From positions 1 to 64,000 of the forward strand of contig NZ_CP121451.1 of NCBI RefSeq assembly GCF_029689945.1: 64,000 nucleotides of DNA, in the 5' to 3' direction. The first letter of the stretch is position 1; each line of letters begins with the position of its first letter. The translations under genes were made by a program, and so were the position numbers. This document shows, in pieces, positions 7,603 through 33,579 of this stretch. This DNA is from Paenibacillus amylolyticus. GTDB lineage: Bacteria > Bacillota > Bacilli > Paenibacillales > Paenibacillaceae. Under the pieces are notes generated by a model. It searched no databases. It was not told the origin of the DNA and worked only from the letters and a program-made list of their open reading frames with translations.

Positions 7603-7737
7603 TATCGATAACCTTCTCTCTATGTAGTAAAGATTAAGCGAGTCTTGCCTATAATGAAAAACCATATTAATCATTAACAAAAATTAGCAAGTGAATATAA
7701 TCATGATTATATAAAATAATGTAAAATTTATCAACAA

Positions 7738-8702: not shown

Positions 8703-8736
8703 CATGTCATAAGCGCTTCATAATGTCACGTAACTG
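8703..8736 (-). promoter_or_regulatory. Predicted AgrA operator of agrBDCA
   Basis: On the minus strand CAGTTA (8731-8736) is followed after 18 bases by TTATGACATG (8703-8712). The same two blocks with the same 18-base gap occur upstream of the biosynthetic operon at 33411-33444. The spacer is otherwise unlike. GTT/CTT cores of the half sites are 21 bp apart, the spacing known for AgrA/LytTR repeats. I see no clear -10 downstream. Confidence 0.65.
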
Positions 8737-9483: not shown

Positions 9484-9494
9484 ATGCATTCACC

Positions 9495-13693: not shown

Positions 13694-16600
13694 GCTGCAG
13701 CCTCTTCCATCAGCTCTTTCACATATTCACTTAACTGCACAATCGTCGGGTAGATAAAGACATCAGCAACTTCTATATCAATGTTAAACTGCTCTGCAAT
13801 AGGCCCGTAAATGCCGAATGCTTTGAGAGAATCTCCACCCAGATCGGTAAAGCTCTTATGCACATCAATCTCATTAAGATCAAGCACCGAAGCAAACACG
13901 ACGGTAACAAACTTCTCAATATCATCTTGACGATCCGTCCCAATTACAGTTAAAGAACCATAATCCTTGATCTGGTAAGGACGAGCCTCCTCCTCTTCCC
14001 CTTCCACATTAGTTCTAGATTTCCCATCACGGTAACCGCTTGGTAACTGGATATATGCACCTAAATATTCTTCAATCTTGGATGTGTTAAATTCACCTGC
14101 AATAAAACCGGAGTCTCCCGCATGAAGCGAAAGTTTAATATATTCTCTGCCTTCCATGTTAGAAACAGATTTCATTAAGAGATGTTCATCCGCAGCATCC
14201 AGATCTCCGAAATTAAGGGCCATTCCCGTCTCTTTCCATCCCGGCCACTGTATTGCTGTTATTAAAGAATCAGATAGTGCCGTCCCTTCCAAAAATGCGT
14301 TAGCAACGGTATAAGAGAACTGGCCGGCAGAACCTGTAATTGTAGTCATTGAAGAACTCGTAACAAAGAACTGTAACTTGTCTGCATTAACATACTTTTG
14401 GAGCAAAAGTGTACCGGTAACCTTTGGTGCTATAATATTTTTGAATTCATCCTTCGTTTTGGAGAACAACATGCCTTCCTCTGGTACTCCCGCCAAATGA
14501 ACAATTCCAGCTATATTATATTTCGCTTGAATCTTAGTGATAGCTGTCTGTACATCTGGCTCATGTGAAATATCGCAAGGGTAGAATTCCAGGTTAGCCC
14601 CTTTAGATATCAGCTTATTCAATTTATTTAGTTTGCTGTCTTCATATGGTGTTCGTTCTTGTTTGGAAGCGAGTGCCGCTTGGATATCTGTACGTCCCAA
14701 TATCGCTATGTGTACTTCAGCATTCACATCGAGTAGCTGCTCAATATATTCAAGCCCGATGCCCCCGTAACCCCCTGTGACAATAACGCAGTCATCATTC
14801 AACAAGTCTACGGATCTAGGCTTCAAATCTTTATTTTCGATGAGAGATTCTTCGTAGATGATTCCACCGTCAACAATGACTTTTTTACCGTCCAGTTCAC
14901 TGCGAACAGCGACCTTTAACAACTCGGTGATATTAAACTCGGAGATCTGAATCATTTGTGTGGCGAAACCTGTATTCTCCAAACCCACAATCCGACCTGA
15001 ACTCAGCATTGCATATTGGAGCGGGTTAACTTGAAGCTGATCTTTCTCCAAAGCAAGACCCTGATCAGCTGCAAAAATTAATTTACCGCCTCTTTTGAGG
15101 AACTTGTTAGCTGTCTTGGCGAATAGGAAGTACTTCATCATTTCTTCTTCAATTTTCCCGGGTCAGAGATGTCCAATCCAATCCACGGTGCATAAACTAC
15201 CAGATCATATCTAATTCCTGTTGTTATATGATCTAATTGCTCATAATTCACACGAGTTATTGTAGAAGTTTCAGCCGTTGAAACCAGATCATTGCTGATC
15301 AGTAACACTTGTTTGTCAACCCAATGTTCTTCTTCTCCACCTGTAAACTCAACTGTTGACCGTTCCCACCCAATAGTATGAAGATACGGCTTAAATAACA
15401 TATTGGCAAAAGACTTCATAACATATTTATCTACATAAGCAACCAGATCTCCCTGATCATTGTACACATGGATGTGCGCAGTGATTACATCATGATCACC
15501 GGTAATGTCATAAAGAAGTTCGGTGACGGAATACATCTTCTTGGTGAATCTTACTCCTGTATAGGTAAACCGACCGTAAGACAAGGGAAGATATGTCTTC
15601 TGGCGAGCCTGAGCCCTTTCATACACCATAGCCCCCAGAATTCCATCCAACATGGAAGGGTGCAGATGGTAGGCGTCCAGATCTTCAAGGAACTCCTCTT
15701 GCAGATCAAGTGAGAGAAGTAATTTGGAATCGGCCATATGAACCATCCGGAAGTCCTGAGCGATAAAGTTCCAACGTCCCTTGAAGAAGTTATTCTCCTC
15801 TTCTGTACTTCCCATCGTTGTAGGTTTCAATTGATTCTGTACCTCTGAGGCCAAATCAAGCTTATGCTTCTCCATTACTTCCTGAGGTTTAAGTGTAAAG
15901 ACCGCATGAGTCGTATACTGCTCCAGATCATCATTCTCGTATGAGAGAACCTCAATATCCAGTTGCTTGGCAGACAGCTTGTTCACATGAATCAGGAAAC
16001 GTTTATCTGTTTTATCATCCAGCTGAATCAGATTTTTGAAATACAACTTTTCTAACGTGAACGAAGGTTCGTCGAAGTATAAGGAAGCTAACTCAGCAGC
16101 CAATTCGGTATACGTGGTACCCGAGAACGTACGCTTACCTCCAATCCGATGATCATCCACGAACCAATCATCTGGGGATAGGTTGACTTGGTACACATCC
16201 GATTTGGCGGATCTGATCACTTGCTCTTGAATTAATGTCGCTTTCACTGGAAGACTTGGACCTGATTGAACAGGTGGATTATATCGTTTAACTGTCGCCC
16301 ATAGAATATCAGATTTGAATTCGTAACCAGGTAATGTTACAGTTCTAGCCTTCTCATACGGGTATTCGTCAAATGTCGTCTCGTACCCATCCAGTTTGAG
16401 TTGAATAAGCTCATTCAAGTCAAACTGTCTATAGTCTGTTTTTAATTGATAATGGATAAGTTTTTTCATATCCGTTGTTACTTCTCGATCACTCGTCGTA
16501 AAGATTCCGTCTGTTGGCACTAGGCCTTCCAGCGATGTTATCGCTGCTCTTACTTTTTTTACAAATTCTTCCATTGAGTTAGCTTGGAAACCAACTCCTG

Positions 16601-18182
16601 TATTAAACCAGTTTCTTCTATGAATAAGGGTATATGAAATATCCTGTAGTCTATATTCGCTCATGTATTCTTCATGTTTCACATACTTGTACAACATCTT
16701 GATTAATTGATTAGTCGATTGTGCCGTGAAAACAAATGGAAAGTCCATTGGATCATGATCTGATTCTTTTACAGCGTGCTCATATTCCTCAAGAATCACA
16801 TGAGCATTGGTACCGCTGAATCCAAAGGAACTGATTCCTCCCCGACGCGGATATTTCCCTTTGATCCACTTTTCAGCTTGGGTAGGAATGTAGAATGGAC
16901 TGTCCACAAACTTGATATATTCATTCGGAGCTTCAAAAGAATGGTTTGGGAAGATTTCCTGATTGCGGAGAGCCAGCGACATCTTAATCAATCCGCCTAC
17001 CCCTGCTGCTCCTACGGTATGACCGATATTTTCTTTTAAACTTGTCAATGCACAAAAGCCACGTTTGTTCACATATTTTTTGTATGCATCCGTTAGCCCT
17101 CGAACTTCAATCGGATCGCCAAGTTTCGTACCCGTTCCATGTGCATCAATGTAATCCACTGTTTCAGGTGAGATATGGCTGCTTGCATAGGCATCCAGTA
17201 GAAGATCCTTTTGAGCATGGGGATTAGGGGCGGTCAAACCGTTAGATTTGCCATCACTATTAATCATGCTGCCACGAATAATAGAATGAATGTTATCATT
17301 GTCTGCTATCGCATCTTTCAACCTTTTCAGAATAACAATACCTACACCTTCGCCAAAGATCGTCCCTTGTGACTCAGCATCAAATACTTTCAGGAAGGAA
17401 CGCGGTGTCTCCACATTGCTGTATTGATCAAGTACGCTACCTTGACGTGGAAATAGTCCAAGAGCAATACCGCCAACAATTGCTGTATCAATCTCTTTAT
17501 CCCGAAGTGTTTTCAATGCTATATGTGCAGCGACCAACGAGGAGGAACAAGCTGTATCAACGACAAACGAACCTCCAGACAAGTTATATATATAATTGAG
17601 GCGACTTGCCAGTATGCCTTCCCAGTTTCCTGAGTTTATATGATTGGAGTCCTCTTCAATCTCGGAACGATAACTTGCCGTAATGGATTTGTCTTTGCCT
17701 ACATAGATAGCTGTTTTGCTATCCTTAACATCCGATAGGCGAATACCTGCATCCTCCAGAGCAAGATAGGAGTGCTTCATAACCAAACGATGCGTGGGGT
17801 CAATATATCTGGCTTCATCCTGGCTAATCCCAAAAAATTCATAATCAAAGGTATCAATATCATCGAGATAAGATCCCTTTTCTTTACACAATCTCTCCAG
17901 GAATTCCTCTGGTGTGATCTTCAAATGTTTGGCTCCGTTGTGCAGATAAGTGTGATCTTCGGGAATATAACCAATTCGACCTTTGGGAAATTCCTTAAAC
18001 CCCTGCTTTCCGTTTTTAACTGTTTGATAGAACTCAAACGTATCTTTGATATCACTGTACTCGCATGACATGCCTACTATTGCAATATCATCTGGAATAA
18101 TCTCTTCTAATAAGTCTTTGCCTACTGCTGAATCAAGTTGGCCCTTTTGAATCTGACCGAAGATATACTCACTCGCCTTCAT
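13690..18182 (-). CDS. AT-less PKS module, KS-DH-KR-ACP (second; one frameshift)
   Basis: Reconstructed at about 1,497 residues. The KS (about 30-460) has the catalytic Cys in DTACSSS near 210, AHGTGT and NIGHT. The DH-like domain has DDHRIGGKRTFSG near 674 and HPSMLDGILG later. The usual Pro and final Gln/His of the DH motifs are changed, so dehydration is uncertain. A structural KR half is followed by KR with TGGYGGIG near 1134 and SYTVAN near 1290. The ACP Ser is in LGGDSLK near 1449. There is no AT, so malonyl must come from the free AT at 22018-23178. Two reading frames abut at 15141-15143; one missing A in a coding AAA run would join LKKK to MMKYFLFAK, the normal structural-KR sequence. 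A genuine ATGA overlap is possible but less likely. Confidence 0.88.
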
Positions 18183-18205: not shown

Positions 18206-21200
18206 TTATTTATTGAGAAATGCAAGCATCTCTGCTGCATCATAATGACCATCACTTTGTTCTGTCACTGCCTCCTGGTTGTCCAGCTGATTGATAAGGT
18301 CAACCTGACCCTGTATCGTTGCAATAGAGAACAATGTCGTTACATCGAATTGTCCAGGAAACGCTAGATTCAATTCATCACATAAATGTACGATTGTAAT
18401 CGAGTCCCCACCTTGTTCAAAGAAGCTAACATTATGGTCATAATCATCATCACCAAGAGTTCTCCGCCATGCAGCAACAACATGATCTTTAACACGATCA
18501 GAACCCTTGTATACCTTCTCTACTTGTTCTTTTCTGTGCATTTTTGTAACAGGACTGAAGAGAGAAGAATATTCATCTGCTGTACGTTTTAGCTTAAAGA
18601 GAGCAGCCGACTTGACATTCGATTGAATAAACCGATTTAATAATGGAATGCCTTCTGCACTGGTTAATTTCTCGAAATAATAATCTTCCATTCCTGCTGA
18701 CATACCTACATCCTGCCAACCCGTTAGATTGAGAACTCTTACATTCGTATTCGTTAAGGGCAAGCCCGATTGATATGCATTAGCCATGGAATACTCCGCT
18801 TGTCCCATCGCCCCGATAACACCCGCTAGTGAGGAGAAATGAATGATCTCTTGCACTTCAGGGAAATACATCCCCAACAGATGTGAACCTTCTATTTTCC
18901 CTTTTGTCTTCGAACAAAACTCACTCCTGGACTTATTAACAAACAATCCCTGAGCCGGCTCACCTGCAAAGTTCAGAATATAATCAAGTTTGCCATGATA
19001 CTGAGCAGCGAAAGTAGAAACCTCATCCTCATTAGATATATCCAACTTGAGATAGCTCACATTATCTCTTAATGGCAGACCATCCCACACGGGCCTTCTT
19101 CCCGCAGCTATGATTTGGATATCAGCATATCGATCAGCCAAATCTCTTGTGTATGCCTCACCAATCCCAGAACTAGCTCCAACGACCAGCACAGTCGTAC
19201 CTTCGGAGAATTTGTCCAGGGATGATTCATCAACTTTCAAACTCTTCAAACGCAGGATATAGAACTTGCCTTCCCGGTGAATAATATGTTGCTCCGACCC
19301 ATAGTCAACTCGCCCACATCCGTTGAGTATGTATGGTCTGTATCCACAACAATAACTTCACTGTTCACTTCCAGTCTTAAGGCATAGGCACCCATGGCTA
19401 TGGAACGATTTAAGGCATTCATTTTGGGATACTGACTCTTCTTGCCTGTGTATCCTAAAACTCCTGAATTTACGTAATAGAACTTTTTCATATGCAGGAT
19501 TTTATTTAAATTGATTAGCACTTTTCCAAGGGTATACGTCTCATCCGCAATACGATCTACCTCTGTATAATTCCGGTCCCACAGATATACGTGTTTTATC
19601 ATATCTTTCTCTTGAAGCCTCATCGCCTTCTCGCCGATTTCTGTTAGTTCCTTAAAATAGGCTATTGGACTATCAAGTTGAAGCTGTGAACGCAAGGATT
19701 CATGTACAAAATGGATTGCTTCGGATGAACTATACGAATGTTGTGTAAACGTTACAGGTATCATCTCTTCTTGTTTAAAGTACGGACTCGATTCTTCCTT
19801 GTTAAGAGCATTTTTTACTTTATAATGATCAGCAGATAGAATAAGATTCCACTGTCCATCGAACAAATGAACATTAAGTGAAAGGATGACATTCCCTCGA
19901 TCGTCCACAGTCCGGTCTACTAATTCTATTTCGGAATAGAACTCTTCGCCTACAAGTTCAGACTGCTCGAAACGGATATCACTCCAATACCAAGGAAACA
20001 CAATCTGTTCCGGTTCAGCCATTCGATTTAGAGCATTGAAGGCAGGATCGAGAATGGAGGGATAGAAGCTATACATTGAGAATTCCATTTTGTACTCTGA
20101 AGGAGGTCTCAGCTTAATTACAGCTCTTGTATGTTCTTGATTAGTCCATAAACGATCTACTACATCCCATCTTCGGGATACAGCAATATCTTCCCCTCCT
20201 TCGCCTCCAACTTGGCTTGTTACAGCAACTTCCATAAGTTCTCCTGCTTTTATTCTCTGATCCATCTCTATCGCCGTTCTTGTTACCGGCTTGTGCATTG
20301 AAGATTTATCATGTAATTCGAACTGTAGCCAAGTCTTCGACACGCCTGCAGTCGTATAAGTTACAACCACCTTTAAGGTTTTCTTATCCAGTTTGAGTAG
20401 AAGCGTCAGGGGGCCGTCTTGAACCGCCATCTGATTCATAATGTGAAGACCATTAATGTCATAGTGCTCAAGAGTGTATGGTGTACAACCTAACCCCTGG
20501 GCTATCATCTCAAAAATACTTGTACCCACAAGCAGATGCTTTCCATTGAACTGATGTTCACGAATCTCCCATTGTCTTTTACTGTGTAAAGGAAACTGCA
20601 CGATAAGCCACTCATCCGTTTCCAAGCGCTGAAGATCATCTTGTACGGTGAATGAATTTTCATCCAACGGGAACCAGTAACTCTTTAAATTCAATGGCAA
20701 CTCCTTGACTTTGGACGGCACCGAACAGCTATATTGTTGCAGAATAACGTGAGCATTTGTACCTGTCATGCCGAAGGAGCTAATACCGGCAAGCGCATGT
20801 TCTTCCAGTGGGAAGGAACGATCCGGAATAAAGAAAGACGATGACTCAAAATCAATCTCCTCATTGGGAATCTGAAAATCCGGGTGAGGTAACACTACGC
20901 GGTTACGTAAAGATAAGGCCGACTTAATCAATGAGAACAATCCTGATGTTACATCCAGATGTCCGAAATTGGACTTACATGCGGTCAGAGCAATTTTCTG
21001 TTTTGTTTTAACACGCTCTGTAAAGTAATTACTCAAGCTCTCAAATTCGATCGTGTCTCCGATGGCCGTCCCTGTACCGTGTGCTTCAATAAATGCCAGC
21101 TGCTGCATCTCATCCTGAAGGGGAGCCCATGCCTGTTCTATCAGTCGTTCTTGCGCATCCGGGTTAGGCGAAGACATATTCATCGTTTGACCATCGTTAT

Positions 21201-21981
21201 TCATGGCGTAGCTACGAATCAGACCATAGATAAAGTCACCATCCCGTTCTGCATCCTCCTTCCGTTTGAGAATTACAGAACCTACACCCTCTCCAATGGA
21301 TGTACCTGTGCTTCGATCATCAAAGGTACGTGTCCGAGCATCTGTTGCCAAAATGTCTACCAATGTATCGGACTTGTACCCCGGCTTAACATAAAGATTA
21401 GAACTAACGACTATAGCCTGATCAATAACACCTTGTCTTAGATCATTTGAAGCTTGAATAATGGATACCAGTGAGGATGAACAGGCCGTATCCGTCATTA
21501 TGGAAGCACCGCGTAAGTCATAGATATATTGGATGCGACTTGATATGGTCGAGTTTAACATCCCAAGCAGATCCGGCTTCAACCTGCGCTGCTGCAACAA
21601 TAATTGATATTGATATTGCTGTGTAGAGTTCACACTTGCATATACACTGGTTTGTGTACCGCGGATCTGCTCAAGACAACCCGCATCATTCAGCGCCCGG
21701 GTGGCTGATAACAGGGTCAATCTCTGGTTGGGATCCATAAAATCAGCACTTTTTTGTGCGATGTTGAAATATTTATGATCAAATTGATCAATATGTTCAA
21801 GATATGAACCTGGCATGAATATGTCCTCATTAACCAGTTCACCAATCTGTGCATGTCTGTTAGTCGGAAATTTCCCCACGGAAATTCGCTTGTCACGCAT
21901 GTTATTCCATGCATCATTCATGTTCCCACACCCTGGAAGCGTAAGGTCCATACCGATAATGGCAATATCTCCTATACTCAA
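18206..21981 (-). CDS. AT-less PKS module, KS-DH-KR-ACP (first; one frameshift)
   Basis: Reconstructed at about 1,258 residues. The KS has DTACSSS near 160, AHGTGTAIGD and SNFGHLD, so it is catalytically complete. The DH-like region has REHQFNGK near 473 (His kept, Pro replaced by Gly) and YPSILDPAFN. The KR has VGASSGIG near 934 and EYSMANAY near 1064. The ACP Ser is in QGGDSIT near 1192. The frame shifts near 19307-19315. One missing base joins DTDHTYSTDVG to VDYGSEQHIIHREGKFYILRL, the usual end of a structural KR, so the two frames are one protein. The start is TTG at 21979-21981 after AGGAGAGGAGGAG. It is the module nearest the free AT and would perform the first of two ketide extensions. 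Confidence 0.88.
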
Positions 21982-22017: not shown

Positions 22018-23178
22018 TTATCCCGCTTTCCAGGCTAACTTGTTACGATAATGCATGATTTGTTCCTCTGGAACTTTTTTCGTCCGAAGAATGAGCTCCA
22101 GCAAGGATAACGTTTTTTCTACATCCTCAGCCGTTGCCTCTTTTCCAATCTGTGATTTGATCTGGTTATATCCACTAATCACAATATTCTCATATGCTTC
22201 CGGATCTTCATTATTATTTTTGGTCGAGACAATAATTCCTAGCGCTCGAGAAAAGACACTGTAGTGTTTATTAACTTCGATATCGTCTTTCAGTTCATTA
22301 CTAAGCTTAGTGAGTTGCTCTTCGTTGTGGAGGGCATGGACTTGGACCTGATTTCCAAGCATTTTGACAAACATTCCGTTCGGGGATAAATCAATGAATA
22401 CTTGTATGCCCTGCTTCACGGCATAATCTACAGACTGTGTCCAGCAGACGGGATTTACCATCTGACTGGATATCCCCTTCTGAATATTCAACGGCTGATA
22501 CGGTCTTGCGAATTCATTGCTAATGACTTCAGTACTCCAATATGGGTTAAACGAAAAACTGTTCAACTGATTGTAAACTTCGTCTGCTGCGGCCTGCATG
22601 TAATGAGTATGAAAAGCGCCACTAACTCCTAAAGGAACAGACTCTACCTTGTTTTGTTTGACGAAGTCCTGCAGATCAGCCTTCTTACCCGCAATGACCG
22701 TTTGCTTAGAAGAATTGTAATTGGCTATATAGATATCTTGTCTATCACTCAACCACGCTTCAACCTTCTCCGGGGAAGCAAACACAGCTGTCATGCCCGT
22801 ACTTTCTTGTGTATCAATTGCTTTTTTCATGGCAGTTCCTCGCACATCTACCAGTTTTAGTCCTTCACTATAGCTTATAGCACCTGCAATGGTTAGTGCT
22901 GTAAGCTCACCCAGGCTGTGTCCAAGAACGATGCTAGGATATAAACCCACATGTTCCCGGTACAATTGATACATGCACATGGACCCTACATAGGTTGCCA
23001 ATTGTGCTTTTCGTGTGTCTTGGCTTAGATCAGAACAGAACCACTCTCGGATCGGCTCCTGCAGCTGTGTCTCTGCTTGCTCAATCCATTTTAGTGTTAG
23101 TTTATTCTTCAGCCATGCCTCCTTTACTTCCTCGCTAATTTTAGTTCCTTGTCCTGCCAACATTAATGCAATTTTCAT
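22018..23178 (-). CDS. Free-standing (trans) malonyl-type acyltransferase
   Basis: A 386-residue discrete acyltransferase. GQGTK is near the N terminus, the active Ser lies in GHSLGE near residue 86, and GAFHT near 187 supplies the His and resembles the malonyl-specific GAFHS. Residues beyond about 290 form an extra helical tail (VSTKNNNEDPEAYENIV onward) not present in FabD. It should load malonyl units on the ACPs of the two AT-less modules, which is the definition of trans-AT PKS. The start is an ATG after AAGGAGG. That ribosome site overlaps the reconstructed end of the C-PCP gene upstream. Confidence 0.92.
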   Translation of the reverse strand: MKIALMLAGQGTKISEEVKEAWLKNKLTLKWIEQAETQLQEPIREWFCSDLSQDTRKAQLATYVGSMCMYQLYREHVGLYPSIVLGHSLGELTALTIAGAISYSEGLKLVDVRGTAMKKAIDTQESTGMTAVFASPEKVEAWLSDRQDIYIANYNSSKQTVIAGKKADLQDFVKQNKVESVPLGVSGAFHTHYMQAAADEVYNQLNSFSFNPYWSTEVISNEFARPYQPLNIQKGISSQMVNPVCWTQSVDYAVKQGIQVFIDLSPNGMFVKMLGNQVQVHALHNEEQLTKLSNELKDDIEVNKHYSVFSRALGIIVSTKNNNEDPEAYENIVISGYNQIKSQIGKEATAEDVEKTLSLLELILRTKKVPEEQIMHYRNKLAWKAG

Positions 23179-23193: not shown

Positions 23194-24668
23194 TTATAAT
23201 CGTTCAAGAATTTTATGTGTCAGCATTTCGGAAGTATAGTGATTAAAGAAATCACTTATTTTTAAATTCACTTTGAATTGTTCTCGTATTCTTTTTTGAA
23301 CTTTACCAAGAGTGTCGAATCCATACCAAGATCAAAAAAGCTCTCTTCTGCAAGTACAGTCTGCTCATTCAGCAATGTACATACCATCCCGGATACCTCT
23401 TTGTATATAACTTCATAGTTATCTTCTCTTAAGACAATGCTTGGAGAAGCGTTATCTCCATCTGTCTCAGTTTCATCTTTCAAACGCAACATTTGATCCA
23501 GCCTTATTTCCGTATCAGCGTATAATGCATGAACATTACGACCAAAAATAGATAACAGTTGTTCCATGTCTTCCGAACTATATTCACTAGATATCATTGT
23601 TATATGAAGTTCATTCATTTGTTTATATATCGAGAAGTGAAGACCATACTTTTCATCGCGATATGTCTCGATTTCATGGAGTGTTATTTCATGCTCATGA
23701 CTAAGCGTAGTCTCGATCAGACTTCCTGATTTGTAGTCAAATATGATATCCCGAAAAATGTTCATACATTTCATGGACTCCTGATATCTCACAGCATCAT
23801 AATGGCTGCTCGTTGTCAGATCCTTGAATATCTGTTGTTGAACTTCTGCAGTGAGCTGCTCAACGCTTGAATGATTCTGTGTATCAAACCTCTTATGAAA
23901 AGGAACTAACTGAACAAAGTTTCCAAGTGCTCTAAAATTGGTCTGATTTCTACCCAGATACGGATAAGCCACATACACGGAATTATGGTTCAGCCAGGCG
24001 GCCACACTAATTGCAAAAGCAGTCAGACATAAAGAGAAATCCGTGTATTTGTGTTTGACCATACTCCCCAGTTTCACAGTTTCACTTCGATAGTTCACAT
24101 GCTCAATTTGTTTGTTGAGCAATCGAGATTTAAATCCTTCATATTCTCCAAAATCAACTGTATTACGCTGTGAGCTAATAGTAGAATCCGTATGTTCATC
24201 CACCAAACTGCATTGGAAGGTCAATGGCTCATCCGCGAGATATGCTGCAATTACATCTTGCAAAAATAGATTAATACTTAAGCCATCAAGTAACGCATGA
24301 TGTACATTAACAAAAAGGTAATCATTGGTTTCATCAGCCACCTTACATAATACAATTTTGACTAACTCTTTATCTTCCACCGATATCAAGTGAGCATCAA
24401 GCATCGCTTGAGGTTCAAACACAGACTGTGAGCAAATTTCAATTGTAGGTACAGCTGCCGTGATCCATCTCTCAATATCAGAAGCAATTCGATAGGAGGT
24501 CCGGAAAATATCGAATTGTTCAAAGTACAATGTAAGCAAATTATACATTTTGGCAATATTGAGCCCTTTCCCAAACTTCACAATCATGGGAATATTATAA
24601 GCCGTAGGATTCAGTAAACTGCTATTAATAATTCTTTTTTCACTATCACTAGCCGGCTTTAACATCAT
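23194..24668 (-). CDS. NRPS condensation-PCP didomain (one frameshift near its end)
   Basis: Reconstructed at about 491 residues: a condensation domain with HHALLDG near residue 120, then a PCP with Ser in LGMDSTLL near 446. The uncorrected frame stops at 23268, in the middle of the PCP. One missing G near 23283 restores KKEYEEQFKVNLKISDFFNHYTSEMLTHKILERL, a normal PCP second half. The new stop is at 23194-23196, immediately before the ribosome site of the AT gene. There is no adenylation domain, so the PCP must be charged in trans, for example by the A-PCP at 10129-11722, or accept a chain. The start ATGATG overlaps the previous gene by 20 bases after AGGAGAGATCGTGA. Confidence 0.85.
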
Positions 24669-26256
24669 TCACGATCTCTCCTAAGGTGCGTGTAAATAGC
24701 ATATCCAGATCTATCGGATAACCCTCTCCTCCTAGTTTCCAGATGACTTCCATTGCTTTAATAGAGTCACCACCCAGTTCCAAAAAGGTCTTATTCATGA
24801 TTAGCTCACTTTGGAGTACACTTGTCATTACTTCTGCAACCTTGTTTACACTATTGGACTCCTGATCTTTATGCTGGTTCATTGCTTGCATGTCTGTTTT
24901 ACCATTGTTATTCATCGGGATTTTGCCCACCACCTTAACTGTTGGTATCATATAATCTGGTAATATATTGCGAAGATGCTGGCGGAATGGTTCGAGTTCA
25001 ATCATATCCGTAACAAATAGATAAAGCCGTTTACCATCGTAATGAGCCAGACACTCTTTATTTAGGCCATAGTTGTATGCACAACGTTCAATCTCACCAA
25101 GTTCAATCCGATATCCAGAGACTTTAACCTGCCGATCTATGCGCTCGATATAGTTCAATTCTCCATCTGTACCTTCACAAACAACATCGCCTGTCCGATA
25201 ATAGCGTTGCCCCTCCCAGTACGCAAATGCTTTTTGATTCGCTTGATCATTGTCAATGTATCCTCTCATCAATCCGGAGTCAGATAATAATAATTGCCCT
25301 TGTTCTCCGCGGTTCACCGGTATACCACTTTCATCCAGAATGAGATAATTCCCCTGGTCAAACATCTTCCCAATCGGAATCTCTGTTTCATCCCCTTTTA
25401 CTTTGTATCGGGTGGCAAAGACTGTTGTCTCCGTTGGCCCATACATATTGTACACATTACAATATTGGGCCGCTTCATGCAGATGTTTGATGGAAGCACG
25501 TTCACCACCCGTTAAAATGAGTTGTAGTTTACCCAGGTCCTCCACACATTCTTCAACGTATAGATTGAACAATCGTGTTGTCAGGAATACGGTATCAATC
25601 TCTGTCAAAATCTCTGGAATGATATCAAAGTCAAGACTATCGTCCTTACTCACCATTCTAACTGTCATTCCATTTAGTAATCCGCCAAAAATTTCGTAGA
25701 CGGATGCATCGAATTCAAGAGGAGCAAATTGACCAATGACATTGCCTTGATAGAATTCCTTTTGCCTCACAATTTTTTCAATAGATCTATCTTCAATAGC
25801 CACAGCCTTAGGCTCACCAGTTGATCCAGAAGTGAAGATAATGTATAAAAGACTGTTATTTGGGCGAGAAGCATGCTTTACCTCCAATACGTCTTGTACC
25901 ACATTTTCACGAGCACATGCTTGCTTCTCTATTTCATCAAGACTACGAAGTATGACTTTGCCATTCACTTTAGTACGCATTTTATTTTTACGATCGTCAG
26001 GATAGTCTTGTGGGATGACGCAATATGCAGCCCCCGCTCGGACAACTCCAAGTATGAGAATGATCGCCTCGAACTTATCCTCCGCCTCAATAGTCACCAC
26101 ATCTTCATTGGCTATTTTTTGCCACATTAAATGTTCTGCTACCCTGGCTGTTAGCATATCCAATTGACCATACGTAAGCGTCTTTGAGGAATCCTTAATG
26201 GCTATTTTCTCCTTATACGTATTGAAACTCCAATCTAATTCTTCTAATACATTCAA
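24649..26256 (-). CDS. NRPS adenylation-PCP
   Basis: A 535-residue A-PCP protein. Motifs: A3 FTSGSTGEPKAV near 142, A4 FDASVYEIFGG near 182, A5 NMYGPTETT, YRTGD, A8 KVSGYRIELGEIE, A10 NNNGKTD, and PCP Ser in LGGDSIKAME near 497. The pocket code by alignment is D-A-Y-F-L-G-M-V-F-K. I do not recognise it exactly; it resembles Ile/Val-type codes (DAFFLGVTFK), so a bulky aliphatic side chain is likely. The apparent TTG start overlaps the stop of the upstream C gene in a TTGA. Adding one G to the coding G5 run about 12 bases upstream would fuse both into a C-A-PCP module (VQKGGFLLNVLEELDW). Given the error pattern I think fusion is likely but not certain. Confidence 0.9.
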   Translation of the reverse strand: MNVLEELDWSFNTYKEKIAIKDSSKTLTYGQLDMLTARVAEHLMWQKIANEDVVTIEAEDKFEAIILILGVVRAGAAYCVIPQDYPDDRKNKMRTKVNGKVILRSLDEIEKQACARENVVQDVLEVKHASRPNNSLLYIIFTSGSTGEPKAVAIEDRSIEKIVRQKEFYQGNVIGQFAPLEFDASVYEIFGGLLNGMTVRMVSKDDSLDFDIIPEILTEIDTVFLTTRLFNLYVEECVEDLGKLQLILTGGERASIKHLHEAAQYCNVYNMYGPTETTVFATRYKVKGDETEIPIGKMFDQGNYLILDESGIPVNRGEQGQLLLSDSGLMRGYIDNDQANQKAFAYWEGQRYYRTGDVVCEGTDGELNYIERIDRQVKVSGYRIELGEIERCAYNYGLNKECLAHYDGKRLYLFVTDMIELEPFRQHLRNILPDYMIPTVKVVGKIPMNNNGKTDMQAMNQHKDQESNSVNKVAEVMTSVLQSELIMNKTFLELGGDSIKAMEVIWKLGGEGYPIDLDMLFTRTLGEIVNDVKAG

Positions 26257-27410
26257 CAGAAATCCCCCTTTTGGACAAGACAGTTTTCCAGCGTTGTATC
26301 AAATAGATCTAACATAAAACGAGTTTGTTCTTCACTGTATTGGCTTGAATTATATTCGATTTCGATCTGCGCTTTACCATTCACTAGATAAACACGGATG
26401 TATAGTTCAAATTTGTTTAAGTTATCGGCAGGAATATATTGAAAGTATCTGAACATATCTTCTTCATAGGAATAGACAACTGGGTAATCACTGGTACATA
26501 GTGTGTGTGGCTCCTTATCCCGCTTTGCGAACGTACTGAGATTATCCAAGGATATTTGTCTGATGGTTGTTAAAGTGTCACGTCCCCTTGCAATTCTTCG
26601 GGGCTGCATCTGTACGAAACAACCGATCTCATAAAATGCCCCCATACTCATACGCCAGTTACCTATGGTTCCATACACACTGCCTGTACAAGTCTGTTCT
26701 AATACTGATTCCCATAGCCCTTGAAAAACTGAATTCTTCGTTACTTTCAACCATGTTGAGATTTGCTCAATATGTTGTAATTGTTCCGGTTTCAAGTGTT
26801 TTATCAGACGATTTAGATGACTTTTTCTAGTTGTTAGATGCATATTTTGTTCAGATAACTTTAAGAATTCTCCCTTAGTAAACGAAGACTTATTCGTTTG
26901 TAACTCATTAATTCGTTGGTAGAAACGAAAGTCGCTATCTGGAGAATTCCGGGATCGTCCTGCAAGGTGATCCATAAACATAGATTCAAAATTCCGAATT
27001 CCCATTCCGTCAATACAGATATGGTGAAATTCAATCAGCAAATACATCTGTTGTTTATACTCTGCGAATTGAGCCCTCCAGGGGTATTCTTTGGTGAGAT
27101 CGATCATGTCCTTTTTCTGCTTCAAATAGATTTCAGGATGCTCTTCCAAGAAGATATGTGAAATCTTAAATTGATTTGGATCCAGGCGATGATAAAACTG
27201 ATTAAATGTTCTTCGCTCCGCATCATAAGTATACCGGGTCTGCAAGGTCAGGCATTCCTGTAATGTAATTAAAAGGGCAGTGCTTACTTCATGAAGGCTA
27301 ACATGCTCTGGAATTTCATAGATGAATGGCAGACGATACACAGGCAATTTATTACAGATGAACATCTTTCGTTGCATATACGTCAGTTCACTAGATTGAA
27401 GAAGTTCCAT
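26253..27410 (-). CDS. NRPS condensation domain, stand-alone or N-terminal part of C-A-PCP
   Basis: A 385-residue condensation domain. The early ELTYMQRKMFICNKLPVY segment corresponds to the C1 region. HHICIDG near residue 130 is the full HHxxxDG catalytic motif. GTIGNWRMSMGAFYEIGCFVQMQPRR corresponds to the late V-GxxxNxxP-type latch region. It should form the peptide bond onto the amino acid loaded by the following A-PCP. The next reading frame starts within its stop codon and may be the same protein (see 24649-26256). The start ATG is in frame with a TAA three codons upstream, so it is separate from the preceding C-PCP-C gene. GGGGG lies about 10 bases before the ATG. Confidence 0.85.
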   Translation of the reverse strand: MELLQSSELTYMQRKMFICNKLPVYRLPFIYEIPEHVSLHEVSTALLITLQECLTLQTRYTYDAERRTFNQFYHRLDPNQFKISHIFLEEHPEIYLKQKKDMIDLTKEYPWRAQFAEYKQQMYLLIEFHHICIDGMGIRNFESMFMDHLAGRSRNSPDSDFRFYQRINELQTNKSSFTKGEFLKLSEQNMHLTTRKSHLNRLIKHLKPEQLQHIEQISTWLKVTKNSVFQGLWESVLEQTCTGSVYGTIGNWRMSMGAFYEIGCFVQMQPRRIARGRDTLTTIRQISLDNLSTFAKRDKEPHTLCTSDYPVVYSYEEDMFRYFQYIPADNLNKFELYIRVYLVNGKAQIEIEYNSSQYSEEQTRFMLDLFDTTLENCLVQKGDFC

Positions 27411-27416
27411 CTGATA

Positions 27417-30071
27417 TTAACCCCCTTCACCGTCCATAGAAATTCCCTGAAGCTCTCTCAAAACTTGCTCAAATATAACCACTATCCGTCTTTCTTCTTC
27501 CGAGTCATATACGTTACTATCGATATATAGGCTAAGTTCGGAATCTGAACCACCCCTGCGCAGTTGCACGAATATTTGGAACTTGGATAATCCATCAAAC
27601 TCAATCATCTGATCAAATATTGATGAATCCTCAGGCTCCTCCCCTTCTTGCAGTGTTTGAAACACAACACGAGGATAGGAAAGATTAAATCCATGTTCAT
27701 TCAAATCCATTAGAGAAACCGCTTGGTTCATTCTTGCAATATGCAGGCTTTTCTTCAGAATATCCGAATGCGTAGTAGAGAAGAACAAGGGTAACACTCT
27801 GGCAAATGAACCAATAATCTGACTCGTTCGTGCTATAACACGCCCATGATAGACAGCACCAATATATCCCTCTTCGTAATTAAAATATCTGGATAATGAA
27901 TAATGAATTACTTGCAGGATCCTTAATTCTGTCTCTTCGAAATTGGATATGCCTGTATCCAGGTTCCAGTGATGCTTATGAAAGTATCCACTTCCAAGAG
28001 ATGACTTACCCGGATTATAGAATGTTTTGTATGGAAGAAGACTTTCCCACTGCTTGAGGGCTATAAAGGTAGCATTAGTGTACTCCTCTGCCAATGAAGA
28101 ATATTGCGAATATACAGGTTCATTGTAGTTGTAACACTCTGTTATCTGATGTTTAAGGATTTGAATACCCATATGATCAATAAGTAAATGGTGAATATTG
28201 AAATACAGATACATATCTCCTGTTGACTTCAAATGAACAAGTTTAAAGTCCCATAATTTGGAGTGAGGATGTATACGAAGTGCTTCTTGATCTCGCTGTA
28301 GATCGCTTAACTCTTCTACATCCATCTCTTCAATATGTACCTGTCGCTGAGGCGTAACTGAAGCTATAAACTGGCCATCCTGCATTTCAAATGAAGTAAA
28401 AAAAATATCATTTCCTTGAATAACCTGTTCAATAGCTGCCTTAACCCGTTTCATATGGCTGGATGCACGAGATGTCAGACGTAATGCATAACTTACATTG
28501 TACATATCCGTATTAATGAACCGAAAACTATCAATAAAGATTGTTTTCAAAAAATTAGGTAGATGATAACGATTAGGGTTACTCGCTTCTGTTCCGTCCT
28601 CATGTTCTGCAATGGACTTTTTATTGAGTTTCTGTTTCAATTCTCTAATCGTAGAGGAAGTATAAATATCATGATAAGATAACTGAACTTCATAATCCTC
28701 GTAGGCATCCGTAATAATCTGAGCAATCTCGAAAGAGGTGATATCCGTATCCAATAGATGATCTTCTTCGTTATATCGCTCAAACAAAAGTTGGAGTGTT
28801 GAACTCCGCTGAGCTTTACCTGTACTAATAGTGGCGATGTCTCTTTGCTCAACTTCACCTTTTTCGATACCTACTTCTTGCCCAGTAATACTTAACTGCT
28901 CATCGAGATTAATACTGTCCAATTCAAGTACCATCTCTCCCAAACGATCACATACACCCTTTACTAACGTGTTATCGTAATGAAACTCCATATACAGACC
29001 GTCTTCGTATTCATTGAATTGTGTATGGTTATCATATTTATACAAATAATCTCCCAAAACAAAGGTCGAGAACACTTCAGAATGGGCAATTGGATCTGAC
29101 ATTCGTGTATAAGAAACTACCAAGTCAAAACCCTTCGCGCCAATAAGATTCATATATTCCTCATAAGTTAATGTACTTGAAGATTCAATAGCCACAAAGA
29201 AATTCTTGAATAGCACTTTAGCGTTATCCTTGTAACTTAGCTGATCTGACAATTGGAATGAGTAGGGAACAACATCTGTATAGTTACCAATATGATGTTG
29301 CTCTGTCTGATGATTCCGCCGTGATATAACTATCCCGAATCGGGATTGCTTACGCTCTGTTGCGAGAGCTATTGCATATAATATGACACCAAATTTGGTA
29401 ATCCGAAGCTTTTGTGCCAATGATCCAATGGCTTCCCATTCATGTGATGAGAATTTGACTTTCCCATAAACAGGTTTTTCCAATAGCTCATAAGTTGAAA
29501 AATGGGATATCGGCTTAAATGATTCGAAATAATCATGGAGCATCGATGAGTCTTCTTTTCGAAGTGTCAGGGACTTCCCAGGCATATCGTATAATCCGGC
29601 AAGATCAGAGCATTCACCATGAAGCACTGAATATTCCAAAGCGTTCATGAATTCATTCATTGAATCACCATCAAACACCAAATGATGGATAAGAAATTCA
29701 ATTCCGCATTCTGCTTCATCTATATAGTATCTTGCCAGCTCCTCTCCCTCAAAAACATTCAGTTTAACATCCCGTAGAGGAACATGACTTCTAAATGAAT
29801 TAAGCCTGTTTGGCCTAGAACAAAAAACATATTCGGACTCCTGCTGTACAATGGTTAACCCTAAAGCTTTATGGCCTTCCATTACTCGTTCAATAGCATC
29901 AGCTATATAACAAGCCGTCCACTTAGAATCATATTTCACGGTAAAGAATATATCATAGTTCTTGCGATGTTTCTCGGCATACAGAATTTTTTCGTGTAGA
30001 GATGATAGATTGGATAATTCGATGGTTTGCGCAACCTGAATGGCCAAGATAATCCGTCCTCCGATCTCCAT
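27417..30071 (-). CDS. NRPS protein C-PCP-C with atypical carrier domain
   Basis: An 884-residue protein with no adenylation domain. The first condensation domain (about 15-400) begins with LSNLSSLHEKILYAEK and has a complete HHLVFDG near 127. A carrier-like segment (about 425-495) reads LLDTDITSFEIAQI: the Ser is kept near 450 but the GGDS consensus is lost. The second condensation domain has HHLLIDH near 628, Gly to His. It is the first biosynthetic gene after the ABC transporter. It may receive a starter acyl or aminoacyl group in trans and pass it to the C-A-PCP module. The ATG has only a GGGG 7 bases upstream. A hairpin (30080-30112) pairs part of the better AAGGAG site, so translation may be controlled. 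Confidence 0.85.
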   Translation of the reverse strand: MEIGGRIILAIQVAQTIELSNLSSLHEKILYAEKHRKNYDIFFTVKYDSKWTACYIADAIERVMEGHKALGLTIVQQESEYVFCSRPNRLNSFRSHVPLRDVKLNVFEGEELARYYIDEAECGIEFLIHHLVFDGDSMNEFMNALEYSVLHGECSDLAGLYDMPGKSLTLRKEDSSMLHDYFESFKPISHFSTYELLEKPVYGKVKFSSHEWEAIGSLAQKLRITKFGVILYAIALATERKQSRFGIVISRRNHQTEQHHIGNYTDVVPYSFQLSDQLSYKDNAKVLFKNFFVAIESSSTLTYEEYMNLIGAKGFDLVVSYTRMSDPIAHSEVFSTFVLGDYLYKYDNHTQFNEYEDGLYMEFHYDNTLVKGVCDRLGEMVLELDSINLDEQLSITGQEVGIEKGEVEQRDIATISTGKAQRSSTLQLLFERYNEEDHLLDTDITSFEIAQIITDAYEDYEVQLSYHDIYTSSTIRELKQKLNKKSIAEHEDGTEASNPNRYHLPNFLKTIFIDSFRFINTDMYNVSYALRLTSRASSHMKRVKAAIEQVIQGNDIFFTSFEMQDGQFIASVTPQRQVHIEEMDVEELSDLQRDQEALRIHPHSKLWDFKLVHLKSTGDMYLYFNIHHLLIDHMGIQILKHQITECYNYNEPVYSQYSSLAEEYTNATFIALKQWESLLPYKTFYNPGKSSLGSGYFHKHHWNLDTGISNFEETELRILQVIHYSLSRYFNYEEGYIGAVYHGRVIARTSQIIGSFARVLPLFFSTTHSDILKKSLHIARMNQAVSLMDLNEHGFNLSYPRVVFQTLQEGEEPEDSSIFDQMIEFDGLSKFQIFVQLRRGGSDSELSLYIDSNVYDSEEERRIVVIFEQVLRELQGISMDGEGG

Positions 30072-30150: not shown

Positions 30151-31257
30151 TTAAATATCTTCCGTTCGCACTCTTGTCAGTAGTACAAAAATAATCGCAG
30201 CACAGACGAACAAGCTGATAATATGCACTGTAATAATGCTGCTGTTACCTCTAAATCCGCTGAACATCTCATTGTTCAACTCTGTAATCCAATGGGTAGG
30301 CAGTACACTTGCAATCTTCTGCATACCTTCAGGCATAATTGAACTTGGCCAGAGTGTCCCGCCCAACATCGCCAGAGGAAGTGATACTACAGTAATAAGC
30401 AATCGCCCCGTAGACATTTTGGTAGTACGACTTACAAGCAGTAACCCAATACCTGCTGCAATCATATTTAGTAATCCATAGGCCAACACGAGCAAGAGAA
30501 GTTCTCCGAACGATAGAGACAGATCAATTTGGAAAACTCCGGTCATAAGAGCAATCATAAGTATAAATTGTCCTACACCGATGACTGCAAACACACTTAC
30601 AGTCTGCACGTAATAGCTTAATTTACTACTCGCTGCCAGTAATAAACGCTGGGTCGTGGTATGCACCTTATCACCAAGGAATAACAGTGTATTGGTCATT
30701 GTAAGGAACATAATGATAAACACAATCATGTTGAATGAACTTGTTAATACCACTGCATTAGGGTTTCCAAGAATCTTCTGTTCCACTTGTATTGGAGCTT
30801 TGGTTGCTGCAGCTTCTTTCATACCTGCGGTTAATGATTCTTCACTTGTGGCATTTTTGGCCAGTGTTTTTAGAACAGAGAATACACTATTCAGTTTAAT
30901 CTCCAACGAGTTTGAATTGAAATTCTGTTCATTCACGTAACTATTCACCTTGAGCAGATCCGGATCATTAAATATGTCCTGCGTACTTGAATTAAATACG
31001 ATTCCCAGATTGGTACTATGATGAATAGCATCATCTGCGGAAGCTGCTTGAGTAATGGTGACATTTTGCTTCTTCAGCATATCAGTGACATAGGAATTCA
31101 CAGCTGGATCTTCTACATACATCGTAAGTGTGACCTTGGTTGCTTCCTCATATTGCGCTACTACAGAATACGTAAACACAACTGGCAACAACAAAATTAA
31201 GATAAAGGTAAGCTTACGCTTGAAAATACGTCTTAAATACAGTTCGAATACCCGCAT
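30151..31257 (-). CDS. ABC-2 family transporter permease
   Basis: About 368 residues. One N-terminal membrane span (ILILLLPVVFTYSVV) is followed by a long extracytoplasmic domain (about 35-165), then five or six spans ending in a charged tail. This is the layout of ABC-2/DrrB-YhaP-type export permeases. It pairs with a second permease directly upstream and with the ATPase before that. The start at 31257 (ATGCGGGTATTC after AGGAGGCGCGATAAG) is preferred to an upstream codon inside the neighbouring gene; it begins one base after that gene's stop. Probable role: export of, or immunity to, the operon's product. Confidence 0.88.
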   Translation of the reverse strand: MRVFELYLRRIFKRKLTFILILLLPVVFTYSVVAQYEEATKVTLTMYVEDPAVNSYVTDMLKKQNVTITQAASADDAIHHSTNLGIVFNSSTQDIFNDPDLLKVNSYVNEQNFNSNSLEIKLNSVFSVLKTLAKNATSEESLTAGMKEAAATKAPIQVEQKILGNPNAVVLTSSFNMIVFIIMFLTMTNTLLFLGDKVHTTTQRLLLAASSKLSYYVQTVSVFAVIGVGQFILMIALMTGVFQIDLSLSFGELLLLVLAYGLLNMIAAGIGLLLVSRTTKMSTGRLLITVVSLPLAMLGGTLWPSSIMPEGMQKIASVLPTHWITELNNEMFSGFRGNSSIITVHIISLFVCAAIIFVLLTRVRTEDI

Positions 31258-31258
31258 C

Positions 31259-32413
31259 TTATCGCGCCTCCTTTCTTGTGAGGGAGTATACTGCAATTAG
31301 AACAAAACCCATTGCAGCAATAAGGGCAGTAAATACAGGCATCAGATCAATTACGCCTTGCCCGATATAATCGAACATTGGACGTTGAAACACTTCATTG
31401 ATGCTTATGGAACTGAGCTCACCCATATCAAGTTTAACGAATCCGCCACCCACAAATGTCATCACCGGAATCAACAATGTCACTACACCATCCACTTGTT
31501 TGATTCGGCGTCCAATAACCCCCAAGAGCAAACCTAGAGCGTTAAAGAAAATTGAACCTGCGATAATGATGAAGAATACAAACATCATGTTGTCTCCATA
31601 GCTGACGTTGAAGAAGAGTTTTGCACAGAATACAATGACTGCGCCTTGAAGAATAGATATCGTGCACCCTGTTAGGAACTGCCCCATAATTAATGCTGTT
31701 TTGGAAATAGGACTAACCAGATATCGATCTCCCAGTGCTTCACTGTACTCTTCCTGTACAAAGTTCATGGTATTAGCCAAACCATAAACAAGAATCAAAA
31801 CTAACATAGTCACGCCATAATAGCTCATCGCTGAAATATTGGAACCACTCTCCGTGGACGCCGCAGTTGCAGTGCCCGGAGCAGCCAACATGTTACTATA
31901 CTCATGTGAATATACGATATTCGGATTGTCGGCACTCGCAACTTCCATTGCCAAGTAGCCATCACCATAGGCTGATAGGGCCAGGTCTGTAATATTAACT
32001 TTCTCAATATTGTTATCCTTGCCATATACGGTGATGTTACCGTTCTTACTATTCTCATACTCACTTGTTAGATCTTTAGGCAGATATATATACTGTTCTA
32101 CCTCCCCAGACTCCAACATCTTAAGCGCTTGTGTGTTACTAGAGCCTACCTTGACATTAAACATCTCTTTATTGTCTTCACTGCTAAGGAATGAAACAAT
32201 ATTTTTCCCTACATCCCCACGATCTTCATTGACCACAACTGTTGAAATCTGAGATACGATGGTAGACTTCGTTTCCTTATCCCCTGTCTGGAACACACCA
32301 GACAATGCATTCCCCAGGATCAGAATCAAAAGAAGCGGCAACAGGATGTAATTGACAAATACGACAGGGTTCTGAAGCTTACGCTTCATACTCGTTGCAA
32401 ATATCGTCCACAT
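31259..32413 (-). CDS. ABC-2 family transporter permease
   Basis: 384 residues with the same topology as its neighbour: a first span (VNYILLPLLLILILGNALSGVF), an external domain to about 190, then six hydrophobic segments (MSYYGVTMLVLILVYGLA onward). The two permeases would form a heterodimer served by the ATPase encoded 4 bases upstream. The start follows TGAGGGATTAGATCT. It is likely co-transcribed with the biosynthetic genes from the predicted AgrA-controlled promoter. Confidence 0.9.
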   Translation of the reverse strand: MWTIFATSMKRKLQNPVVFVNYILLPLLLILILGNALSGVFQTGDKETKSTIVSQISTVVVNEDRGDVGKNIVSFLSSEDNKEMFNVKVGSSNTQALKMLESGEVEQYIYLPKDLTSEYENSKNGNITVYGKDNNIEKVNITDLALSAYGDGYLAMEVASADNPNIVYSHEYSNMLAAPGTATAASTESGSNISAMSYYGVTMLVLILVYGLANTMNFVQEEYSEALGDRYLVSPISKTALIMGQFLTGCTISILQGAVIVFCAKLFFNVSYGDNMMFVFFIIIAGSIFFNALGLLLGVIGRRIKQVDGVVTLLIPVMTFVGGGFVKLDMGELSSISINEVFQRPMFDYIGQGVIDLMPVFTALIAAMGFVLIAVYSLTRKEAR

Positions 32414-32417: not shown

Positions 32418-33335
32418 CTAATCCCTCAGATTCTTTCTTGTTAATTTGAAAAACACTTGTTCCAGATTAGGGGTAATATATTGAAAGCTTTTCACATCTT
32501 CGCCAAAAGACTCTTTGATCTGACTTATCGCATTCACGTCATTTTTAGGGACTCCCAACTCGATATTGTTCCCTTCTGCCAGTAATACAACGTAATCCTC
32601 AAGCTCCTTGCTGTACGCCGTACTTTTTCGCTGTAGCTCCAGACGGATAATAGCCTGGTCTGTATGTTCCTGAATAACATCATTGAGCTTACCTTGGCAG
32701 AGCAATTGTCCATCATCGATAATTCCGACATGAGAGCAGATCCGTTCGACCTCCTCCATGTAGTGAGAAATATAGATAACGGTTGTTCCAAGTTGATTCA
32801 GCTCTATAATGGCATCCAAAATTCGATTACGGGATTGTGGGTCAACCCCCACCGTTGGCTCATCCAGTATGATGACATCCGGGTTGTGGACAATACCACA
32901 AGCGATATTGAGCCTTCTTTTCATGCCACCCGAGAACTTTTTAGGTTTTTGTTTGCGCTCTTCCCACAATCCAACAAATTCAAGGGCGAAACGAACCTGT
33001 TTCTTTAGACGCTCTCCCTTCAATCCGTACAGTTTACCGAAAAACAATACATTCTCATAAGCAGATAGGTCATAAATCAAGGCCAAATCCTGTGGAACAT
33101 AACCTACTCGTTTATTTGTGCTTGAATTCAGATGTTCGTTAAACCACTGAATTTTACCATTTTGAGGTTTATCCAGCCCAAGCATAACTCTGGTTAAAGT
33201 AGATTTTCCTGCCCCATTGGGACCAAGTAAGCCGTAAATCTGACGATCCCCAACCGATAAGGATAATTGTTTTAGTACTGGTTTCTTTTTGTTATAACTG
33301 AATTGAATATTCTCTCCAGTAAATACCGTTTGCAT
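32418..33335 (-). CDS. ABC transporter ATP-binding protein
   Basis: 305 residues. Walker A GPNGAGKST (near 38), Q-loop YVPQDLA, signature FSGGMKRRLN, Walker B VIILDEPTVGVDP and H-loop YISHYMEE are all present, so the ATPase should be active. The C-terminal 80 residues are the variable tail common in DrrA-type drug exporters. The gene is the first of the operon. Its ATG follows GGGAGGTAAACGAAT, and the promoter with the agr-type motif lies 75-110 bases upstream. Confidence 0.95.
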   Translation of the reverse strand: MQTVFTGENIQFSYNKKKPVLKQLSLSVGDRQIYGLLGPNGAGKSTLTRVMLGLDKPQNGKIQWFNEHLNSSTNKRVGYVPQDLALIYDLSAYENVLFFGKLYGLKGERLKKQVRFALEFVGLWEERKQKPKKFSGGMKRRLNIACGIVHNPDVIILDEPTVGVDPQSRNRILDAIIELNQLGTTVIYISHYMEEVERICSHVGIIDDGQLLCQGKLNDVIQEHTDQAIIRLELQRKSTAYSKELEDYVVLLAEGNNIELGVPKNDVNAISQIKESFGEDVKSFQYITPNLEQVFFKLTRKNLRD

Positions 33336-33410
33336 ATTCGTTTACCTCCCAGATTTGTTGTGCCTTTTATGTAAACTTAGTGTAGCACTCAATCTCATCA
33401 CTTAAACTTT

Positions 33411-33444
33411 CATGTCATAACAGGCAGGTATGAAGTACTAACTG
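33411..33444 (-). promoter_or_regulatory. Predicted AgrA operator and promoter of the NRPS-PKS operon
   Basis: On the minus strand CAGTTA (33439-33444), 18 bases, then TTATGACATG (33411-33420), identical in sequence and spacing to the site upstream of agrB. ACAGTTAGT (33437-33445) fits the LytTR repeat consensus fully, and the second GTT core lies 21 bases downstream. A weak -10, TACACT (33379-33384), would put transcription start near 33372. That places the proximal half site around -44 to -52, where an activator would sit. Confidence 0.7.
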
Positions 33445-33560: not shown

Positions 33561-33579
33561 GCTGCACATCAGATCTTTC

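Follow-up and report, generated by a model that had tools for sequence, protein, structure and literature searches.

Two promoters within the window, by which we mean the whole analyzed stretch of 64,000 nucleotides from Paenibacillus amylolyticus, share a rare tandem motif. One precedes the agrBDCA genes of a peptide-signal system, the other an operon for an ABC transporter and a dissociated NRPS-PKS pathway (Table 1). Very probably, the AgrA protein encoded at this locus directly co-activates both operons through the shared tandem site. We favor one AgrA site in both promoters because the geometry of the motif, its uniqueness at zero to one mismatch, its conservation in relatives with the cluster and agrA, and the nearby agrA gene all agree. 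A preliminary description of this DNA had proposed such a link between an Agr signal and a metabolite operon, and given the geometry, the presence of agrA in the locus, the rarity of the motif and the conservation of both sites, it is well supported at the sequence level.

The shared motif is the predicted binding site of the locus-encoded AgrA, with two half-sites lying 21 bp, or two helical turns, apart. A cyclic peptide derived from AgrD would build up, upon which AgrC would phosphorylate AgrA. Bound to the agrBDCA box, AgrA would presumably exert positive feedback, and at the ABC-NRPS-PKS box it would switch on product synthesis and the transporter together, the latter possibly providing self-protection.

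Table 1. Features of the agr/NRPS-PKS locus (window coordinates)
Feature	Position	Strand	Family or remark
Candidate AgrA-type box, ABC/NRPS/PKS operon promoter	33411..33444	-	half-site 1 ~33444-33436, half-site 2 ~33423-33412
-10 element TACACT of the extended -10 (TGCTACACT)	33379..33384	-	27 bp past the 33-bp ABC-promoter box
ABC transporter ATPase	32418..33335	-	first gene of the operon; retained in three reduced loci
ABC-2 permease 1	31259..32413	-	
ABC-2 permease 2	30151..31296	-	
884-aa condensation-domain protein	27417..30071	-	cluster marker
Stand-alone condensation domain protein	26253..27410	-	
Adenylation + carrier domain protein	24649..26256	-	
Stand-alone condensation domain protein	23268..24668	-	
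Stand-alone acyltransferase	22018..23178	-	
Ketosynthase-dehydratase protein	19246..21981	-	
Ketoreductase + carrier domain protein	18206..19249	-	
Ketosynthase-dehydratase protein	15138..18182	-	
Ketoreductase + carrier domain protein	13690..15141	-	
Two small overlapping ORFs	12477..13693	-	second weakly ketosynthase-like
Thioesterase	11737..12462	-	
Adenylation + carrier domain protein	10129..11722	-	in pieces in the window
218-aa protein	9495..10151	-	no family match above threshold
Phosphopantetheinyl transferase	8812..9489	-	last gene ahead of agr
Candidate AgrA-type box, agrBDCA promoter	8703..8736	-	half-site 1 ~8736-8728, half-site 2 ~8715-8704
agrB	7945..8640	-	PF04647
agrD	7824..8000	-	TIGR04223, 27.1 bits vs cut-off 19
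agrC, split	6254..7680	-	GHKL kinase; sensor ORF 7183-7680, kinase ORF 6254-7165
agrA, response regulator with LytTR domain	5497..6231	-	PF00072 + PF04397

The pattern CAGTTA-N18-TTATGACATG, as claimed in the preliminary description, is present at both boxes without a single mismatch. That description would have taken many random matches in the genome as a refutation. They were not found: the 6,832,320 bases of the genome contain two exact matches, none with one mismatch, two with two and 46 with three, and since the reversed pattern yields 60 matches in total at up to three mismatches, everything beyond the exact pair is at background level. Sixteen fixed bases had been proposed, and both copies in the window indeed share them, but the final G is replaced by A in the agr promoters of two relatives (G052 and G002) and is not conserved, which leaves a common core of 15 bases. 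In the alignment both sites lie inside conserved blocks. Among 75 genomes of the genus this core has six exact matches, two each in the window's genome (G000), G002 and G052, all of them at the agr and ABC promoters, and its reversed control has one match in the same 75 genomes. The three genomes that bear the core are those with a close agrB (88-100% identity); two further genomes of the genus have agrB relatives of 31-32% identity only. A search of the agr region against plasmids returned no match. As to a wider regulon, a stricter pattern with at most one mismatch gave four matches outside the cluster in 17 genomes, one each in G002, G184, G215 and G365. The control gave ten, so that none of the four has support.

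The bipartite nature of the motif stood up as well, while its layout had to be corrected to two tandem half-sites, the downstream one reaching through GACAT. In the set of 33 sites, taken from 17 genomes, the most pronounced columns make up CAGTTA plus weaker positions, followed by C[A/T]GTTATGACAT, with starts 21 bp apart. In the window the half-site pairs at this distance read CAGTTA.../CTGTTA... and CAGTTA.../CGCTTA..., in direct repeat. That half-site cores 21 bp apart correspond to LytTR/AgrA geometry had been proposed beforehand and agrees with the direct-repeat spacing of LytTR regulators. An extended -10 element (TGC, then mostly TACACT or TAAACT) follows the box after 26-27 bp in all 17 ABC promoters, ties having been assigned to 26 bp by the spacing script. 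For the agr promoters, 26 bp was the best -10 spacing in 7 of 16 and other distances were preferred in the remaining 9, and no -10 at the ABC-like spacing was found in any of the three agr promoters of the window's clade. No good -35 was seen at the ABC promoter, which fits a promoter that depends on an activator. In G365 (L077) and G037 (L240), the ABC promoter has a scoring site in each of two registers offset by 21 bp, which amounts to three consecutive half-sites. In the window, the gap between the box and the upstream ABC-2 permease gene contains an inverted repeat with a T-rich stretch (~33508-33562), which is conserved in two relatives and by eye looks like a terminator.

The genes agrB, agrD, agrC and agrA are adjacent in the window, in the gene order of an agr system. 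Their box directly follows the phosphopantetheinyl transferase gene, with agrA about 2.5 kb downstream of it. Compared against the PDB, the window's AgrA matches ComE (4cbv) across residues 3-244 (9e-28) and S. aureus AgrA (3bs1) across the LytTR domain (6.4e-27). R198, N201 and S202 as well as C199/C228 have the same numbering as in S. aureus, and the former three, which are DNA contacts of AgrA according to the excerpted text of PMC4227749, are invariant in five aligned sequences. A second, weak AgrB-family match of 30 bits is found far from the locus, outside the window (G000:C1:4128112-4128396, L260).

The box at the other end precedes an operon of about 25 kb, which comprises the ABC transporter (one ATPase, two permeases) and the dissociated NRPS-PKS. 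The top model of the ATPase is the daunorubicin-resistance protein DrrA, though below the curated cut-off (213 vs 312 bits). The two overlapping ORFs within the operon are matched, also overlapping, in 14 other clusters whose fetched stretch covers that part. agrC, the last adenylation gene and an MFS gene at 35730-36973 each consist of at least two ORFs in the window; agrC is a single frame in G052. The window's genome is 95.84% complete, compared with 99-100% in most relatives listed, and because of this low value sequencing indels are as likely as real gene breaks. Given the split agrC and adenylation gene, the strain may be impaired, or the assembly may contain indels.

Relatives of the 884-aa condensation protein occur in 17 of 394 family genomes, distributed over four genera. 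In 14 of the 17 fetched regions the operon starts with the ABC genes, ends with the phosphopantetheinyl transferase and is followed by agrB. The remaining three are G245, in which one contig ends inside a ketosynthase and agr follows the same final genes on a separate contig; G365, with its agr genes in reversed orientation; and G215 (L093-L094), a producer-type locus that lacks most biosynthetic genes and retains agrBDCA, the ABC genes and both boxes. As further departures, the 218-aa gene is missing from G180, and in G190 an additional adenylation gene lies between agrD and agrC. Across the 394 genomes, AgrA of at least 70% identity is encoded in 21, AgrB (E <=1e-35) in 18, and an orthologue of the ABC ATPase (E <=1e-110) in 20, all 20 being among the 21 with AgrA.

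Outside the window's clade, at most 3 of 300 shuffles matched the best motif window in 13 of 14 ABC promoters (6 in G180) and in 10 of 13 agr promoters (30 in G190, 16 in G230 and 72 in G300). A weight matrix was built from the 33 sites of 17 genomes and applied to regions of 17 to 45 kb, with the clade of the tested genome excluded each time. In 16 of 17 regions no position outscored the ABC-promoter site (in G180 it came fifth), and the agr site came first or second in all 16. Thirty-one of the 33 sites are lowest-mismatch windows; those at the G365 ABC and G190 agr promoters were picked by eye, and the picked G190 site has five mismatches, the 30/300 figure referring to a different window with four. 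Scores of the agr sites are weak in G190, G230 and G300 (11.6, 11.1 and 12.6, vs 11.0, 9.2 and 9.7 for the next regional match), and some other regional matches, such as those of 17.3 in G002 and in G033, outscore them.

Beyond the matrix set, a search of genome contigs with the AgrA alignment kept 80 of 144 loci; gene content was read in 25 of these, and the matrix was applied to 10, then 9 (partly the same). In P. radicibacter, which is another producer, as well as in Virgibacillus sp. MSJ-26 and Ruminiclostridium hungatei, the top-scoring site is found upstream of agrB. Neither of two Saccharibacillus loci nor Bacillus sp. B1-b2 gave a convincing match. In P. montaniterrae and P. camelliae, matches precede both a divergent ABC gene and agrB, the one at agrB of P. 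montaniterrae being weak (9.4). Their loci (L130; L131 4242-8491) comprise a smaller cluster, a divergent ABC pair with one condensation-like gene, before agrBD, possibly the same switch with another payload. A contig search with AgrB confirmed no relative.

Could the motif be a chance coincidence of 6+10 bases, picked post hoc from many promoter pairs? Among dinucleotide-shuffled promoter pairs of 300-350 bp, 3 of 1000 share two exact blocks summing to at least 16 bases (each block at least 5 bases, gap 5-30), and the pair by itself is only moderately unlikely by chance. However, the motif is conserved across genera and was recovered by the clade-excluded matrix, and it is this conservation in relatives, rather than pairwise rarity, that makes it certain. 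A chance origin has a negligible probability and is ruled out by the genus-wide distribution of the core together with the clade-excluded ranks. More substantial is the objection that the site is real yet bound by some other regulator, either another LytTR protein or a repressor, with agrA as a mere neighbor. Two further LytTR proteins are indeed encoded elsewhere in the genome, and the Saccharibacillus and Bacillus sp. B1-b2 loci without a convincing match would fit as well. However, the 15-base core is absent from all 70 genus genomes without this agrA and present in three of the five that have it, the remaining two carrying a variant box. Furthermore, the box is retained in three loci that are reduced to ABC, agrC and agrA genes, and the three loci with a best match upstream of agrB were independent of the matrix. 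We consider control by another regulator improbable and retain direct co-activation by AgrA as the preferred reading.

The three reduced loci belong to G033, G037 and G296 and occur in two genera. They contain the ABC ATPase, two permeases, two agrC genes and agrA. Neither the 884-aa protein, searched for genome-wide, nor an agrB of the window kind was found in these genomes. A Pfam search for AgrB (PF04647) returned nothing in the genomes of G033 and G037 and one divergent copy on another contig of G296, so that in the latter the absence holds for the locus only. In each case the box is the top matrix match of the ABC promoter and the -10 is present at the 26-27 bp spacing; the box is a variant without an exact match to the 15-base core. 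The preliminary description had not foreseen that such a variant persists where the biosynthetic genes are missing. Both flanks of the locus in G033 and G037 can be aligned with G052 and G002; the alignment with the window covers the ABC side and extends up to agrA, skipping about 22.5 kb of the window between the ABC genes and agrC. Because of the flank alignments, the reduced loci of G033 and G037 represent the same chromosomal locus as that of the producers. The 5.5 kb of the window that lie past agrA are unaligned with G033 and G037, as is the stretch beside agrA in G052 and G002.

The receptors at these loci were compared with those of the producers. Between the window and G002 the AgrC sensors are 25% identical, compared with 89% for the kinase half and 97% for AgrA. 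The AgrD rings, whose limits we take by analogy with S. aureus, would be CSLFN in the window and CGFLL in G002. G052 has the same ring as the window, and its sensor is 88% identical. The window's agr system combines a signal and sensor that vary between specificity groups with a conserved kinase and AgrA. This is the pattern of the S. aureus agr types, in which the hypervariable region extends from the 3' part of agrB through agrD into the 5' part of agrC (PMC3673130, excerpts). One sensor of G033 and G037 clusters with those of the window and G052, at 67-72% identity and a support of 100/99. The other groups with the G002 type (49-50% identity), at a support of 90/89 in the full tree, which carries a long-branch warning, and of 100/99 after removal of three long rows. 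Within G033, the kinase halves of the two receptors share 91% identity. The two sensors of G296 pair with the two receptors of producer G300 (85% and 54%). At the sequence level, the receptors of G033, G037 and G296 resemble those of producers of differing signal type. The AgrC tree comprised 27 of 36 matches, nine being omitted (the window's split gene, overlap duplicates, cut or broken pieces), and in the reduced sensor tree the window's sensor was added and the three long rows were removed. More than one agrC, or a piece of agrC, was also seen beside the agr genes of P. terricola (L120), Paenibacillus sp. GSMTC-2017 (L124) and P. macquariensis (L118), and extra agrC genes in producers are possibly receptors for foreign signals.

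One might speculate that G033, G037 and G296 carry eavesdropping, immunity-only alleles, which would sense the peptides of producers and turn on the transporter as immunity; from the gene content and the sensors we give this an even chance. The locus would then exist in two forms, a proposal about which we are equally divided. The producer allele would have a cyclic peptide and one AgrA box each for the signal operon and for the NRPS-PKS weapon and the accompanying immunity transporter. The listener allele, located at the same chromosomal site, would be without weapon and signal genes and would have retained the AgrA-controlled transporter along with two receptors. That the transporter of the reduced alleles serves immunity rather than export, and that these non-producers sense two pherotypes, might be true or false with similar probability. 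With near-identical kinase halves and sensors of two producer pherotypes, either enemy signal would raise immunity ahead of attack.

The loci without agrB might instead be decaying remnants of a producer locus. A frame break in permease 1 of G037 leaves two pieces of 245 and 159 codons, and over 241 codons, including an out-of-frame tail, its dN/dS between G033 and G037 is 0.33. However, the dN/dS values between these two genomes are otherwise low. The ATPase has 0.04, agrA 0.05, the two agrC genes 0.14 and 0.10, permease 2 0.10 over 310 codons, and permease 1 0.20 if restricted to its first 225 codons (negative dS values were regarded as saturated and excluded). In G033 and G296 the ABC genes, agrC and agrA have uninterrupted frames, and the persistence of box and -10, the reduction in two genera and the retention of two receptors with differing sensors speak against decay as well, which we consider rather unlikely. 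It is to a similar degree doubtful that the transporter exports the product or another compound and that its presence in non-producers is unrelated to immunity. ABC-2 transporters in such clusters often export. Nevertheless, this one and its box were retained in three genomes without biosynthetic genes at the locus, and the best model of its ATPase is a resistance protein, albeit under the cut-off.

What these loci offer is a peptide signal tied to an uncharacterised natural-product cluster in 17 of the 394 family genomes. Owing to this link, a synthetic cyclic peptide might serve to elicit the product. Should the three reduced loci indeed be listeners, they would represent a natural instance in which eavesdropping on a signal feeds into immunity, and in which the receptors, the regulator site and the transporter can all be read from the DNA. 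It would then become directly testable which producer peptide activates which listener receptor. Precedents for cheating and eavesdropping in quorum-controlled antimicrobials are described in the excerpts of PMC9532987 and PMC5964356. Among the open PMC papers listed by our searches, we found neither agr control of a Paenibacillus NRPS-PKS cluster nor listener alleles of such kind described.

The proposed arrangement resembles known systems in several aspects. At P2/P3 of S. aureus agr, an AgrA dimer sits on two direct repeats upstream of the promoters of the peptide-signal operon (PMC4227749, in part), and two direct repeats likewise stand in front of the signal operon here. However, the second target of S. 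aureus is P3/RNAIII and virulence, whereas that of the Paenibacillus locus would be a biosynthetic operon. According to passages of PMC6193735, direct repeats of LytTR regulators are mostly separated by 12 bp and located just upstream of the -35. The same source describes HdrR and BrsR of Streptococcus mutans, which use 9-bp direct repeats 12 bp apart for autoregulation and control of antimicrobial genes, in some cases with an extended -10. The Paenibacillus locus shares the 9-bp repeats 12 bp apart and, at its ABC promoter, the extended -10, and autoregulation together with an antimicrobial-type target is proposed for it. In contrast, HdrR and BrsR are systems of a regulator and a membrane protein that control bacteriocins, while the Paenibacillus locus has a four-gene agr and a non-ribosomal/polyketide product.

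In C. acetobutylicum, Agr controls the neighboring lanthipeptide-synthetase-like gene CA_C0082, and related agr systems sit in lanthipeptide clusters, e.g., that of C. hungatei (PMC10301443, excerpts). Since such clostridial cases are known, an agr system beside a biosynthetic cluster is not new in itself. However, the clostridial clusters encode ribosomal-peptide enzymes and the Paenibacillus locus an NRPS-PKS, and a shared AgrA box and listener alleles, as proposed for Paenibacillus-type loci, are absent from the part of the clostridial account that we cite (PMC10301443). The closest parallel to the proposed listeners might be pneumococcal blp, for which a quorum-controlled antimicrobial with immunity, several pherotypes and non-producers are described (PMC9532987, in part; Son 2011 and Miller 2018 cited there). 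If the reduced loci are listeners, Paenibacillus-type loci would likewise comprise producers, non-producers, immunity and several pherotypes. Unlike blp, the loci of G033, G037 and G296 are without signal genes and have two receptors of differing pherotype beside one regulator. Besides, the chemistry of both signal and product differs between blp and the Paenibacillus-type system.
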